From Rhizobium sp. BK196 (lineage in GTDB: Bacteria; Pseudomonadota; Alphaproteobacteria; Rhizobiales; Rhizobiaceae): 64,000 nucleotides of DNA. Each line of letters opens with the position of its first letter. Position 1 is the first letter of the stretch. Both the position numbers and the translations under genes were made by a program. The stretch spans positions 620,001-684,000 of the forward strand of contig NZ_JACHZB010000003.1 of NCBI RefSeq assembly GCF_014193255.1, written 5' to 3'. The notes under the pieces were generated by a model. The model saw only the letters and a program-made list of their open reading frames with translations, did not search any database and was not told the DNA's origin. Shown one piece after another: positions 37,150 through 39,555 of the stretch.

Positions 37150-37653
37150 TCAAAGCAATCGCGACATGAAGACTTCGGTGTGGCTGATTTCAGCCGGCAC
37201 GGTGTGAAAAGGCGGGCAATGGGTAAAGCCGAAGGCTTCGTAGAGCGAGAGCGCACTTTTCAGATAGGCAGCGGTATTGACGAGCATAGTGGGACGGCCG
37301 CTCTTTTTTGCCTCCTCGAACACCCGCCGCATCAGCACATTGCCGATGCCCCGGCCGCGAAAGGCGGGGTCTACGTAGAATTTATGGATCTCCATGGCAT
37401 CGGTCTCGAAGGGTGCGAGCGCGATGCAGCCCGCCGGTGCTCCCTCCCATCTGGCGAGGAACATCATCGCTTCGTCGGAGGTGTATTTCCGGGCGAGGCT
37501 TTCATGATTTTCGCCGTGAAAAAGCGTCATGACAATCTCGGCAGGAACGCCATGATCACGTCCCATCGCCACATCCAGGGCACCGAGCGCCTCGCAGAAG
37601 CCAGCGGCGATGACGAAATCCTCTGTGCTGCCTGCCCTTGAAACGGAAATCAT
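37150..37653 (-). CDS. GNAT-family N-acetyltransferase
   Basis: A 167-residue acetyltransferase. The acetyl-CoA motif is IHKFYVDPAFRGRGIGNVLMRR (about 105-126), with the R-G-x-G-I-G loop, followed by NTAAYLKSALSLYEAFGF. The acceptor is unknown. The ATG at 37653 opens a frame of family length; the frame continues upstream through a region that has the ABC-F leader on the other strand and does not look coding. It is divergent from the ABC-F gene. Confidence 0.85.
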   Translation of the reverse strand: MISVSRAGSTEDFVIAAGFCEALGALDVAMGRDHGVPAEIVMTLFHGENHESLARKYTSDEAMMFLARWEGAPAGCIALAPFETDAMEIHKFYVDPAFRGRGIGNVLMRRVFEEAKKSGRPTMLVNTAAYLKSALSLYEAFGFTHCPPFHTVPAEISHTEVFMSRLL

Positions 37654-37759
37654 CCCCACGCCCCCGGATGACGAAGGCCCTTTATACCATCTGAGCGTGT
37701 TTACTGCCATCGTGATCCCTTGTTTCCAGACGCAAGCAATGGTATTTCCCTCGTGTAAC

Positions 37760-38028
37760 CGAGAAAGAAAGGAGGGCTGCGCGTGAATATCTATTTCCGG
37801 CATCATCGCCAGCGTGGCCCAGTCAACGCCCTGCAGATGCGTTTGCAGGGCTGACCAGAGACCGTTTCTCGTAAATCTCTTCCTGGTCTGCCCCCAGTGG
37901 CACTGCTGCACCTGAATGCCCGCCGTTCAAGCTGCAGCATTTCATAATCCGCCAAGCATAACGCGCTTTCCGTCGATGGCTGCAAGCCCCGGATAGGCGC
38001 GATCGCTTGGCAAGACCAGGATCCGATC
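37760..38028 (+). promoter_or_regulatory. Structured leader of the ABC-F gene
   Basis: A 5' region of about 270 nt with several pairings: CGAGAAA (37760-37766) with TTTCTCG (37865-37871), which could mask the upstream-ORF ribosome site; GCCCTGCA (37828-37835) with TGCAGGGC (37844-37851), inside the upstream ORF; and GCCAAGC (37951-37957) with GCTTGGC (38005-38011), close to the ABC-F ribosome site AGGA. This suggests translation-dependent switching, as known for other ABC-F resistance genes. It is otherwise a 375-bp gap. Confidence 0.5.
37783..37854 (+). CDS. Upstream ORF (23-codon leader peptide)
   Basis: A GTG-started frame with GGAGG 7 nt upstream (37771-37775). The peptide is rich in His, Arg and Gln (NIYFRHHRQRGPVNALQMRL after the start) and ends at TGA 37852-37854. 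A perfect 8-bp hairpin overlaps its last codons. It lies 174 nt before the ABC-F start codon. Its quality as a translated frame is good for so short an ORF, but expression is not proven. Confidence 0.5.
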   Translation: MNIYFRHHRQRGPVNALQMRLQG

Positions 38029-39555
38029 ATGACCCTCATCAATATCCGCAATCTCGGCATCGTTCTGTCCGCCCCGCTGTTTTCGAAACTCAATCTCGTC
38101 GTCAATGCCGGCGACCGGATCGGCCTCGTGGCGGCGAACGGGCGCGGCAAATCCACGCTGCTCCACCTCATGACGGGCAAGCTGGAACCGACCGAAGGCG
38201 AGATTACGCGGGCGCGCGGGCTCACCATCGGCCATGTGGAGCAGAATATGTCACCGGCACTTCTCGACGCCAGCTTCCGTGACGCCGTGCTTCTCGCCCT
38301 TCCTCCTGACCAGGCTGACGGCGAAAGCTGGCGTGCAGATGTCGTGCTGGAATCGCTCGAAGTGCCCGAGGAATTGCGCGAGCGGCCGCTCCGACAGCTC
38401 AGCGGCGGCTGGCAGCGGCTGGCACTGATTGCCCGCACATGGGTGAACGAACCTGATGTGCTGCTGCTCGACGAGCCGACCAACCATCTCGACCTCGAAA
38501 AGATCGCGCAGGTGGAAAACTGGCTGAACGCATTGCCCCGCGATACGCCCGTGATCATCTCCAGCCACGACCGCGCCTTCCTCGATGCGACGACCAACCG
38601 GACGCTCTTCCTGCGGCCGGAGCAATCGCCGGTCTTCTCCCTGCCCTATAGCCGGGCGAGAGCGGCACTCGACGAGGCTGACGCCTCCGATGCGCGGCGC
38701 TACGAGAAGGACATGAAGACGGTCGAGCAGTTGCGGAAGCAAGCGGCCAAGCTCAACAATATCGGCATCAATTCCGGCAGCGACCTGCTGGTGGTCAAGA
38801 CAAAGCAGTTGAAACAGCGCGCCGAAAAGCTGGAGGAAACGGCAAAGCCTGCGCATCTGGAGCGTTCAGCAGGCGCGATCCGCCTCGCCAATCGCGGCAC
38901 GCATGCCAAGGTGTTGGTCACGCTTGAGGATGCAGAAGTCACCACGCCTGACGGCATGCTGCTCTTCCGAACGGGAAAGCAGTTCATCTGCCAAGGCGAC
39001 CGCATCGTGCTGCTCGGCCTCAATGGTGCCGGCAAGTCGCGGCTCGTCTCCATGCTGCGCGCGGCGATCGCCGAGCCTGAAACGGCAAAGGCCGGCATCA
39101 AGGCGACACCCTCGCTGGTGCTCGGCTATGGCGACCAGTTGCTTGCCGATCTCAGCGATGCCGACACGCCGCTGCAAACGATCATCCGCCGCTTCGATGT
39201 CGGCGACCAGCGGGCGCGCTCACTGCTTGCCGGTGCCGGCATGACGATCGAGATGCAGAGCAAGCCGGTCAAACTGCTGTCGGGCGGGCAGAAGGCACGG
39301 CTCGGCATGCTGGTGCTCAGGCTGACGCAGCCGAACTTCTACCTGCTCGATGAGCCCACCAACCATCTCGACATCGAGGGGCAGGAAGCACTGGAAAGCG
39401 AGTTGCTGGCCCATGAGGCAAGCTGCCTGCTCGTCTCCCACGACCGCAGCTTCGTGCGCGCGGTCGGCAATCGCTTCTGGCTGATCGAGCGGAAAAAGCT
39501 GGTGGAGGTGGAGAGCCCGGAAGGCTTCTTTGCGAGCGTTGGCGGGGCTGGGTAA
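38029..39555 (+). CDS. ABC-F family ATPase
   Basis: A 508-residue protein with two ABC ATPase domains and no membrane part. Domain 1: Walker A ANGRGKST (about 36-43), signature LSGGW (about 124), Walker B DVLLLDEPTNHLD (about 141-153). Linker with charged coiled coil (about 215-280). Domain 2: Walker A GLNGAGKS, signature LSGGQKAR, Walker B FYLLDEPTNHLD. ABC-F proteins bind the ribosomal E site and act as translation factors or give resistance to ribosome-targeting antibiotics. The structured leader with an upstream ORF points to regulation by ribosome stalling. Precise subfamily is unassigned. Confidence 0.93.
   Translation: MTLINIRNLGIVLSAPLFSKLNLVVNAGDRIGLVAANGRGKSTLLHLMTGKLEPTEGEITRARGLTIGHVEQNMSPALLDASFRDAVLLALPPDQADGESWRADVVLESLEVPEELRERPLRQLSGGWQRLALIARTWVNEPDVLLLDEPTNHLDLEKIAQVENWLNALPRDTPVIISSHDRAFLDATTNRTLFLRPEQSPVFSLPYSRARAALDEADASDARRYEKDMKTVEQLRKQAAKLNNIGINSGSDLLVVKTKQLKQRAEKLEETAKPAHLERSAGAIRLANRGTHAKVLVTLEDAEVTTPDGMLLFRTGKQFICQGDRIVLLGLNGAGKSRLVSMLRAAIAEPETAKAGIKATPSLVLGYGDQLLADLSDADTPLQTIIRRFDVGDQRARSLLAGAGMTIEMQSKPVKLLSGGQKARLGMLVLRLTQPNFYLLDEPTNHLDIEGQEALESELLAHEASCLLVSHDRSFVRAVGNRFWLIERKKLVEVESPEGFFASVGGAG

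Follow-up and report, generated by a model that had tools for sequence, protein, structure and literature searches.

Organization of the locus

The window studied here, a stretch of 64,000 nucleotides from the genome of Rhizobium sp. BK196, carries a gene for an ABC-F ATPase preceded by a short upstream open reading frame (uORF) and by several complementary RNA segments (Table 1). The uORF starts at GTG 37783, 7 nt downstream of GGAGG (37771-37775) in a strong ribosome site, and ends at 37854; the ATG of the ABC-F gene (38029) is found 174 nt past this end. A perfect 8-bp hairpin, hereafter P1 (37828-37835/37844-37851), covers the last codons of the uORF and reaches 10 bp if the next G-U and A-U pairs are counted. 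The uORF, its GGAGG, the hairpin, the words thought to pair and the ABC-F start, as described in an initial annotation of this DNA, are all present at the coordinates given there.

Upstream of the uORF, a putative promoter was recognized by eye. It is absent from the output of a consensus promoter scan, and weak T-rich positions occur at comparable distances 5′ of the uORF Shine-Dalgarno (SD) sequence in a set of 100 leaders. A search of positions 37600-38200 against Rfam gave nothing above the gathering score, the best model being isrJ with 20.1 bits for a gathering score of 37.

Table 1. Coordinates of the genes, leader elements and predicted sites in the window (negative numbers count uORF codons back from the stop).
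Feature	Position	Strand	Remarks
Divergent GNAT acetyltransferase gene	37150..37710	-	ATG 37710-37708; common intergenic region with the leader
Putative promoter, TTGTTT-17 nt-TATTTC	37720..37748	+	By eye; transcription start expected at about 37755
uORF SD sequence, GAAAGGAGG	37767..37775	+	Near-invariant in 100 leaders (set anchored on GGAGG)
P0 5′ arm, uORF SD/start region	37774..37782	+	96.2% of cells paired in the alignment
uORF, 23 codons, MNIYFRHHRQRGPVNALQMRLQG	37783..37854	+	GTG start; TGA 37852-37854
Conserved peptide core R-Q-R-G-P, codons -15 to -11	37807..37821	+	dN/dS 0.185; switch position
P0 3′ arm	37812..37820	+	Codons -13 and -12, preceded by the last base of codon -14 and followed by the first two of codon -11
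Predicted stall	37816-37818 (P-site Gly), 37819-37821 (A-site Pro)	+	Switch calculation
Arm 1 (P1 5′ side), within the uORF	37828..37835	+	
P1 3′ side	37844..37851	+	Its GGGC doubles as the start of arm 2
Arm 2, GGGCTGACCAG, spanning the uORF stop	37848..37858	+	96.1% of cells paired in the 10-pair helix with arm 3
Arm 3, CTGGTCTGCCC, anti-SD arm	37883..37893	+	
Arm 4, AGACCAGGA, including the ABC-F SD AGGA	38013..38021	+	Pairs with arm 3 (P3)
ABC-F ATPase gene	38029..39555	+	508 aa; the genome has at least five ABC-Fs

Distribution of the leader and linkage to the ABC-F gene

A search with the leader DNA (E≤1e-3) matched all 90 genomes of the same genus, the window's own included, and only 3 of 60 others, weakly. 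Leaders were read in 89 of the 90 same-genus genomes, those of G068 and G024 being broken, and the 90th (G039) is intact according to the covariance model described below (142 bits). Among 47 fetched ABC-F loci, which include Rhizobium, Neorhizobium, Pararhizobium, Agrobacterium and Bradyrhizobium, the P1 core and its surroundings are found in 46. The locus without the core (L047) encodes a protein only 30% identical, and in one of the 46 (L014) the uORF lacks its 5′ half.

A covariance model, R1, was built from 40 leaders. It matched 57 of 297 genomes in a sample of the family (27 of 109 genera), 40 of 297 in a sample of the order (17 of 122 genera) and 7 of 289 in a sample of the class, with one significant match only in the window's own genome. 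For the 57 and 40 matches of the family and order samples, leaders were read where the locus was fetched. In the order sample, the ABC-F (E≤1e-100) occurs in 41 of the 297 genomes and each of these 41 has a uORF leader, recognized by R1 (E≤1e-3) in 38 and by eye, as a diverged form, in 3. For 36 of the 38, a single contig carries the leader and ABC-F matches at a short distance from each other. The two matches fall on separate contigs in G493, a leader with RQRGPV is located about 1.5 kb upstream of the ABC-F in G532 (L191), and the match to the ABC-F protein is partial in G363. Diverged leaders are represented by G622 and G667, with RTRGPV and R1 E values of 1.6e-7 and 6.4e-6, and by G473 (L257), missed by R1 even at E≤1, where WFGPRFAL and a P1-like stem were recognized by eye. 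Two genomes of the order sample (G099 and G137) have a leader match only, and these matches are weak (E above 1e-4).

In the class sample, 11 genomes carry the ABC-F and R1 finds the leader in 6 of them. In G761 and G846 the leader was seen by eye (R1 E values of 1.1e-4 and 3.6e-5), and none was seen by eye in the ABC-F genomes G924 (63% identical), G703 (42%) and G673 (41%). G924 (L238) has a good ABC-F orthologue without a recognizable leader. A single leader-only match in this sample (G906) is weak. The leader is linked to the ABC-F gene: in 56 of 57 model matches with loci, two of which are the window's own locus, the ABC-F start is 82-229 nt past the end of P1, the exception being L191 (G532).

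Twelve plasmid records carry the ABC-F, including those of Sinorhizobium meliloti psymA, Shinella, Ketogulonicigenium and Gemmobacter. Five of the twelve were opened and all five have the leader, with the core RQRGPV in S. meliloti and Pararhizobium, RTHGPD in Shinella, and RTRGPV and RNCGPV in two Rhodobacterales. psymA (L246) and the Ketogulonicigenium plasmid (L247), on which the ABC-F and its leader reside, are large and typed as conjugative. About 1.4 kb upstream on psymA, the annotation shows a toxin-antitoxin pair of the ParDE type.

The locus had been taken for an undescribed rhizobial case. Full-text searches of a PubMed Central library listed no paper describing this leader. Judging from the matches above, the leader is not a rhizobial speciality, since it reaches other alphaproteobacterial orders, including Rhodobacterales.

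The leader peptide

The leaders show a conserved AAAGGAGG, an open frame and selection at the peptide level, which points to a translated uORF. The peptide mostly has 21-24 residues, and distant leaders reach 28. All 101 unique leaders have Arg -15, Gly -12 and Pro -11, with varying codons for these invariant residues (CGC, CGG or CGT for Arg; GGC or GGT for Gly; CCC, CCG, CCA or CCT for Pro). In the same 101 leaders, codons -20 to -9 have a dN/dS of 0.455 when read in the uORF frame vs. 0.91 and 1.60 in the other frames, and the ratio falls to 0.185 over codons -15 to -11 (RQxGP). In distant leaders the residues before GP are RQF, RQC, LSH, LTY, LQY or LQH, and L235 has QP in place of GP. On the evidence of these substitution rates, selection acts on the peptide, with RxxGP as its core (dN/dS 0.19); RxxGP replaces the richness in His, Arg and Gln noted in the initial annotation as the conserved feature. 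Because the Gly-Pro codons are within the 3′ arm of the hairpin P0, part of the Gly-Pro conservation may be due to RNA structure.

The +x+ motif of ErmDL-type leaders stalls erythromycin-bound ribosomes, and R-Q-R might be read as such a motif, making the leader a classical macrolide sensor: Arg is indeed invariant at -15 (101/101) and found at -13 in 75 of 101 leaders. However, Phe occupies -13 in 24 of 101, and a +x+ stall would place Gln -14 in the P site, a position at which the computed switch (see below) does not open for any footprint from +12 to +17. After the RQF group and the switch scan, the assignment of R-Q-R to the +x+ motif was dropped, and a macrolide sensor of this type appears quite improbable.

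A few uORFs (L102, L187, L233 and L257 of G473) end early inside P1, at or soon after GPxxAL, with the stem kept.

RNA hairpins of the leader

RNAalifold applied to 40 leaders (alignment A1, made of the window and of 39 of the 101 unique leaders, chosen by similarity) yields three hairpins. P0 joins the uORF ribosome site to codons -14 to -11, P1 covers the last codons and P2 associates the region after the stop with the anti-SD segment. They were evaluated in a second alignment (A3, n=49) composed of the window and of 48 of 52 selected leaders, L188, L190, L192 and L193 being excluded. In A3, 96.2% of the cells are paired in P0, with double changes at 3 of 8 pairs, 99.8% in P1 and 93.9% in P2. 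Jointly, 97.1% are paired vs. 31-53% for slid versions of the helices, and 31 cells carry double changes vs. 10.3 in shuffles, a count reached in 0 of 500 shuffles. Two of the five shuffle measures in A3 are at chance level, namely the number of pairs with double changes (5 vs. 4.0) and the number of pair types (18 vs. 18.8).

P1 is nearly constant among near relatives, and both of its arms co-vary in distant ones. Thus, the arms GCCCTGCA/TGCAGGGC are replaced by GCCCCGCG/CGCGGGGC or GCCCCGCA/TGCGGGGC in some distant relatives and by GCCCCACG/CGTGGGGC or GCCCTGTA/TACAGGGC in others, among 165 leaders counted (L192, one of them, is in the wrong register). In L233 only one P1 arm is changed. The end of the uORF lies inside the stem in L233 and L187, and the uORF extends beyond it in L240, L242 and L235. 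Since the end of the uORF shifts inside or past P1 while the stem persists, the stem would be kept for the RNA. The alignments thus indicate that selection acts on the RNA as well, P0 apparently masking the uORF start and P1 showing compensatory changes in distant relatives.

As judged from these comparisons, the conservation of the leader is not due to chance; chance, or conservation as an att site only, was rejected in view of the frame-specific dN/dS and of the compensatory stem changes. The expectation that the ORF and the hairpins would be conserved in orthologues was borne out by the alignment and covariance checks, and a structured leader with a uORF suited to ribosome-stalling control of the ABC-F gains support from this conservation.

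Competing helices and predicted masking of the ABC-F Shine-Dalgarno sequence

GCCAAGC (37951-37957) and GCTTGGC (38005-38011), near the ABC-F start, had been proposed to form a masking pair. Both words exist in the window, and the pair was rejected as a conserved element because they occur together in only 6 of 158 leaders. The conserved masking pair is instead CTGGTC (37883-37888) with GACCAG (38014-38019). The leader contains two copies of GACCAG. One (37853-37858) overlaps the uORF stop and extends past it; the other (38014-38019) is just 5′ of the ABC-F start, where it overlaps the SD AGGA. Both copies are complementary to CTGGTC. At most 26 nt from the ABC-F start, GACCAG is found exactly in 116 of 157 leaders and with at most one mismatch in 151 of 157. 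In control windows 30, 50 and 70 nt farther upstream, exact copies are found in 0 of 157 leaders each and copies with one mismatch in 5, 8 and 6.

Two helices use arm 3. One is P3, between arms 3 and 4 (93.5% of cells paired vs. 18-40% for slid versions). The other is the competing arm 2:arm 3 helix GGGCuGACCAG/CUGGUCuGCCC, which has 10 pairs and 96.1% of cells paired. Both are conserved without covariation, and in P2, as in P3, compensatory double changes are absent despite the conservation. GGGC belongs both to the arm 2:arm 3 helix and to the 3′ arm of P1. In the ErmC attenuator, pairing of arms 1:2 and 3:4 alternates with pairing of arms 2:3. Likewise, because GGGC is common to P1 and to the arm 2:arm 3 helix, the combination 1:2 + 3:4 excludes 2:3 in the present leader.

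An apparently analogous competition, with other letters, was seen by eye in L225, L229, L249 and L247, which carry RTRGPV or RNCGPV, the last two being Rhodobacterales. There, GGCTGA(C) faces (G)TCAGCC after the stop, and GTCTCAT(C) faces (G)ATGAGAC just before the ABC-F start; the pairing contains one wobble in L229 and is weaker in L247.

Attenuation of transcription, intrinsic or Rho-dependent, might operate rather than masking of the start site, and in the literature compared here it is used, or combined with other modes, by the known ABC-F leaders of MsrD, VmlR and CplR. We give it almost no credence for this leader, as no terminator-like site was found in 37400-38400 and the conserved 3′ element sits on the ABC-F SD sequence. 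The leader would apparently act by masking translation without a visible terminator, and its deep conservation allows the constraints on the peptide to be told apart, in part, from those on the RNA.

A further pairing, of CGAGAAA (37760-37766) with TTTCTCG (37865-37871), had been proposed to mask the ribosome site. The complementarity is present and partly conserved, 66 of 110 leaders having 6 bp or more, but it is not the well-conserved masking pair. Its mean length is 5.7 bp vs. 4.0 bp in shuffled loops, the shuffles leaving the relatedness among leaders uncorrected. It may represent an extra, non-essential contact of the uORF ribosome site with the P2 loop.

A computed switch at the conserved Gly-Pro

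The effect of a ribosome on the leader was calculated by removing the RNA 5′ of the ribosome leading edge (P-site base +15) and folding the remainder, in 157 leaders. This set excludes L014, L016, L047, L107, L132, L137, L138-L140, L145, L184, L187, L191 and L194, which are disrupted, duplicate, odd or without an ABC-F match, as well as identical sequences and L042, whose start is one base out of register. P3 has a median probability of 0.95-0.98 when the P site is at codons -19 to -13, of 0.03-0.04 at -12 to -7, where the means are 0.27-0.31, and again of 0.92-0.99 for codons from -6 up to the stop. The first opening codon, -12, is the glycine of the conserved Gly-Pro. In 39 leaders, the opening codon is -12 for footprint edges of +14 to +16, -11 for +12 or +13, and partly -13 for +17. 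When arm 1 is covered, as compared with a ribosome at the stop, the probability of P3 falls by more than 0.05 in 122 of 157 leaders, changes by at most 0.05 in 35 and rises in none; the ABC-F SD sequence becomes more open in 92 of 157 and less open in 17.

In its full length, the leader of the window does not switch at equilibrium, P3 remaining at 0.99 or above at every position. Folding was also calculated for RNA ending just after arm 3. In this case, a ribosome at Gly -12 brings the probability of the GGGC:GCCC extension of the arm 2:arm 3 helix above 0.5 in 156 of 157 leaders, vs. 1 of 157 when no ribosome is present; for the window the values are 0.99 and 0.00. Since the window switches only in this co-transcriptional calculation, its switch would have to act during transcription. 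Sequence and computation agree on mutually exclusive helices with the ABC-F SD sequence in arm 4, though not at equilibrium for the window's leader.

Starvation for an amino acid or a charged tRNA (Arg, Gly or Pro) could in principle provide the pause: Arg is frequent in the peptide and the geometry would permit a stall at -12 or -11. Such an attenuator is nevertheless very improbable, as the uORF lacks a series of identical regulatory codons and the gene under its control encodes an ATPase of a ribosome-acting type, not a biosynthetic enzyme.

The ABC-F protein

The window genome has four further ABC-F matches at E≤1e-20, whose best NCBIfam models are EttA (above its cut-off), Uup and, twice, a YheS type (below their cut-offs). 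The ABC-F of the window is divergent, its best solved relatives being VmlR2 (8buu, 179 bits) and YheS (177 bits). Among the best 25 models listed, it scores under the cut-off of every antibiotic-resistance (ARE) subfamily model, namely Sal, Msr, Vga, Lsa, CplR, producer, OptrA, VgaF and CarA. With NF000355 it reaches 297 bits for a cut-off of 380. Its assignment to a recognized resistance type was dropped because this model scores higher, 361-469, on the genome's four other ABC-Fs. An AlphaFold model made with ten aligned sequences has a mean pLDDT of 71 and a pTM of 0.42; as its best Foldseek matches are ABC-Fs of several types, it does not place the protein. With no resistance-subfamily cut-off reached among the models listed, a role of this ABC-F in resistance is a guess drawn from its regulation.

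A model for the control of the ABC-F gene

The leader is probably a translation attenuator of the ErmC type, where a drug-provoked stall at Gly-Pro would unmask the ABC-F gene, whose product would then clear the ribosomes. This proposal is based on conservation at the peptide and RNA levels, on the competing complementarities and on the computed switch. From these we infer where the transcript would start, that the ribosome would stall, what would trigger the stall and how the ABC-F would act. In this model, the mRNA would start just upstream of the uORF. In the OFF state, the uORF would be translated to its stop, or be idle; arm 1 would then be paired to the beginning of arm 2 as P1, and the ABC-F SD sequence would be hidden by P3, the helix of arm 4 with the anti-SD arm 3. 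In the ON state, a ribosome stalled at the conserved Gly-Pro would cover the start of arm 1. Arm 2 would then capture arm 3 in the 10-bp helix, arm 4 would be freed and the ABC-F would be translated. According to the computation, a pause anywhere at codons -12 to -7 would produce this state. The trigger of the stall would most likely be an antibiotic at the peptidyl-transferase centre or in the exit tunnel, and the ABC-F product would then clear drug-stalled ribosomes. The model makes a precise prediction, a stall in which Gly occupies the P site and Pro the A site. The leader would also be a natural reporter for the drug or stress answered by this ABC-F.

In ErmC/ErmCL, the stalled ribosome alters the mRNA structure and exposes the SD sequence of the main gene (PMC10219788). 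The present leader would work similarly, with a short uORF and a predicted stall that would expose the main-gene SD sequence. It differs by the controlled gene, an ABC-F instead of an rRNA methylase, by an unrelated peptide and by the alphaproteobacterial host. Moreover, arms 1 and 2 overlap here the last codons and the stop of the uORF, and an additional hairpin, P0, covers the uORF start.

Closer in terms of the controlled gene are CplR, VmlR, VmlR2 and LsaA, Gram-positive ABC-Fs preceded by a uORF and a structured leader (PMC10201436). CplR combines transcription and translation attenuation; premature termination is presented as typical of this group, and the uORF consensuses given have 3-4 residues, MR[I/M], MIN, MK[L/Q] and MAGN (PMC10201436). 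The present leader shares the uORF and the structured leader 5′ of an ABC-F, whereas its peptide mostly has 21-24 residues with an RxxGP core, and the terminator search cited above was negative. As far as the literature compared here extends, leader-controlled ABC-Fs are Gram-positive; the present case belongs to a major Gram-negative class.

In MsrD/MsrDL, the leader peptide senses drug-stalled ribosomes and attenuates transcription, and MsrD suppresses its own drug-induced expression, which the authors read as rescue of the leader-stalled ribosomes (PMC10314930). A sensing leader peptide and, possibly, feedback of the ABC-F on the leader complex would be common to both systems; MsrD/MsrDL differs by its transcription attenuation and by its peptide, MYLIFM.

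The suppression by MsrD, as read by its authors, is a precedent for feedback of an ABC-F on the leader of its own gene (PMC10314930). It is also relevant to another reading, where the arrest at Gly-Pro would be intrinsic, as in SecM, and resolved by the ABC-F. The leader would then gauge the free stall-clearing capacity of the cell, and any stress occupying the ABC-F would raise expression of the gene. SecM arrests with a P-site Gly and an A-site Pro, within the motif FxxxxWIxxxxGIRAGP (PMC10951299). The predicted state in our leader is the same, with an Arg nearby and a downstream ribosome-binding site exposed; the computed switch opens at this SecM arrest state, and the Arg/Gly/Pro core is invariant in 101 leaders. 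However, SecM is long and regulates secA, and its Arg163 is two residues before the P-site Gly, whereas the invariant Arg is three residues before it here. In addition, this Arg is lost in the LSHGP and LTYGP leaders. In the window, the chain has 12 residues when Gly -12 is in the P site, so contacts over the full tunnel length used by SecM are impossible. Finally, the ABC-F leaders in the literature compared respond to drugs. An intrinsic arrest is therefore unlikely. With similarly limited confidence, it may be imagined that the self-arresting peptide, relieved by its own ABC-F, constitutes a stalled-ribosome gauge throughout the alphaproteobacterial class. If true, ABC-F output would track how much ribosome rescue the cell still lacks, independently of the drug or other cause.

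The inducer of the attenuator is thus probably a ribosome-targeting antibiotic, an intrinsic arrest relieved by the ABC-F being less likely. Phazolicin, a ribosome-targeting peptide of a Rhizobium, blocks the exit tunnel (PMC6783444). As rhizobia meet ribosome-targeting peptides such as this one, a natural inducer is plausible, the link to this leader being a guess. Eleven novel sORFs located in 5′ UTRs are reported from the small proteome of S. meliloti (PMC10117765).

P1 as an insertion site

In two genomes, G068 and that of Rhizobium sp. Root1220 (L014), the sequences indicate that elements with related integrases have inserted at the P1 hairpin. In G068 (L195), an element of about 10 kb sits in P1; the junction on the gene side has the whole hairpin and the other side its first 17 bases. 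A 507-aa integrase adjoins the junction (phrog_1, E 2.4e-10; Pfam phage-integrase weakly, E 0.005), and farther in are a resolvase and a terminase-small-like frame. In L014 (841-2229), a 462-aa integrase (phrog_1, E 5.5e-16) is found beside the leader, which has lost its own 5′ half to other sequence. This integrase shares 74% identity with that of G068, and both loci retain arms 3 and 4 without the RxxGP half of the uORF. In the other broken leader of the genus, G024 (L196), the 5′ half of the leader is followed by foreign DNA and only a C-terminal remnant of the ABC-F is left; no integrase was identified beside this disrupted leader. The P1 pattern has no exact match in the viral contigs searched, and comparison of the leader with phage records gave short pieces only (65 records, best E 0.4). 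In G068 (L107), the end of the element supplies a new in-frame ATG, giving MDSQNALQMRLQG, a uORF without the RxxGP core.
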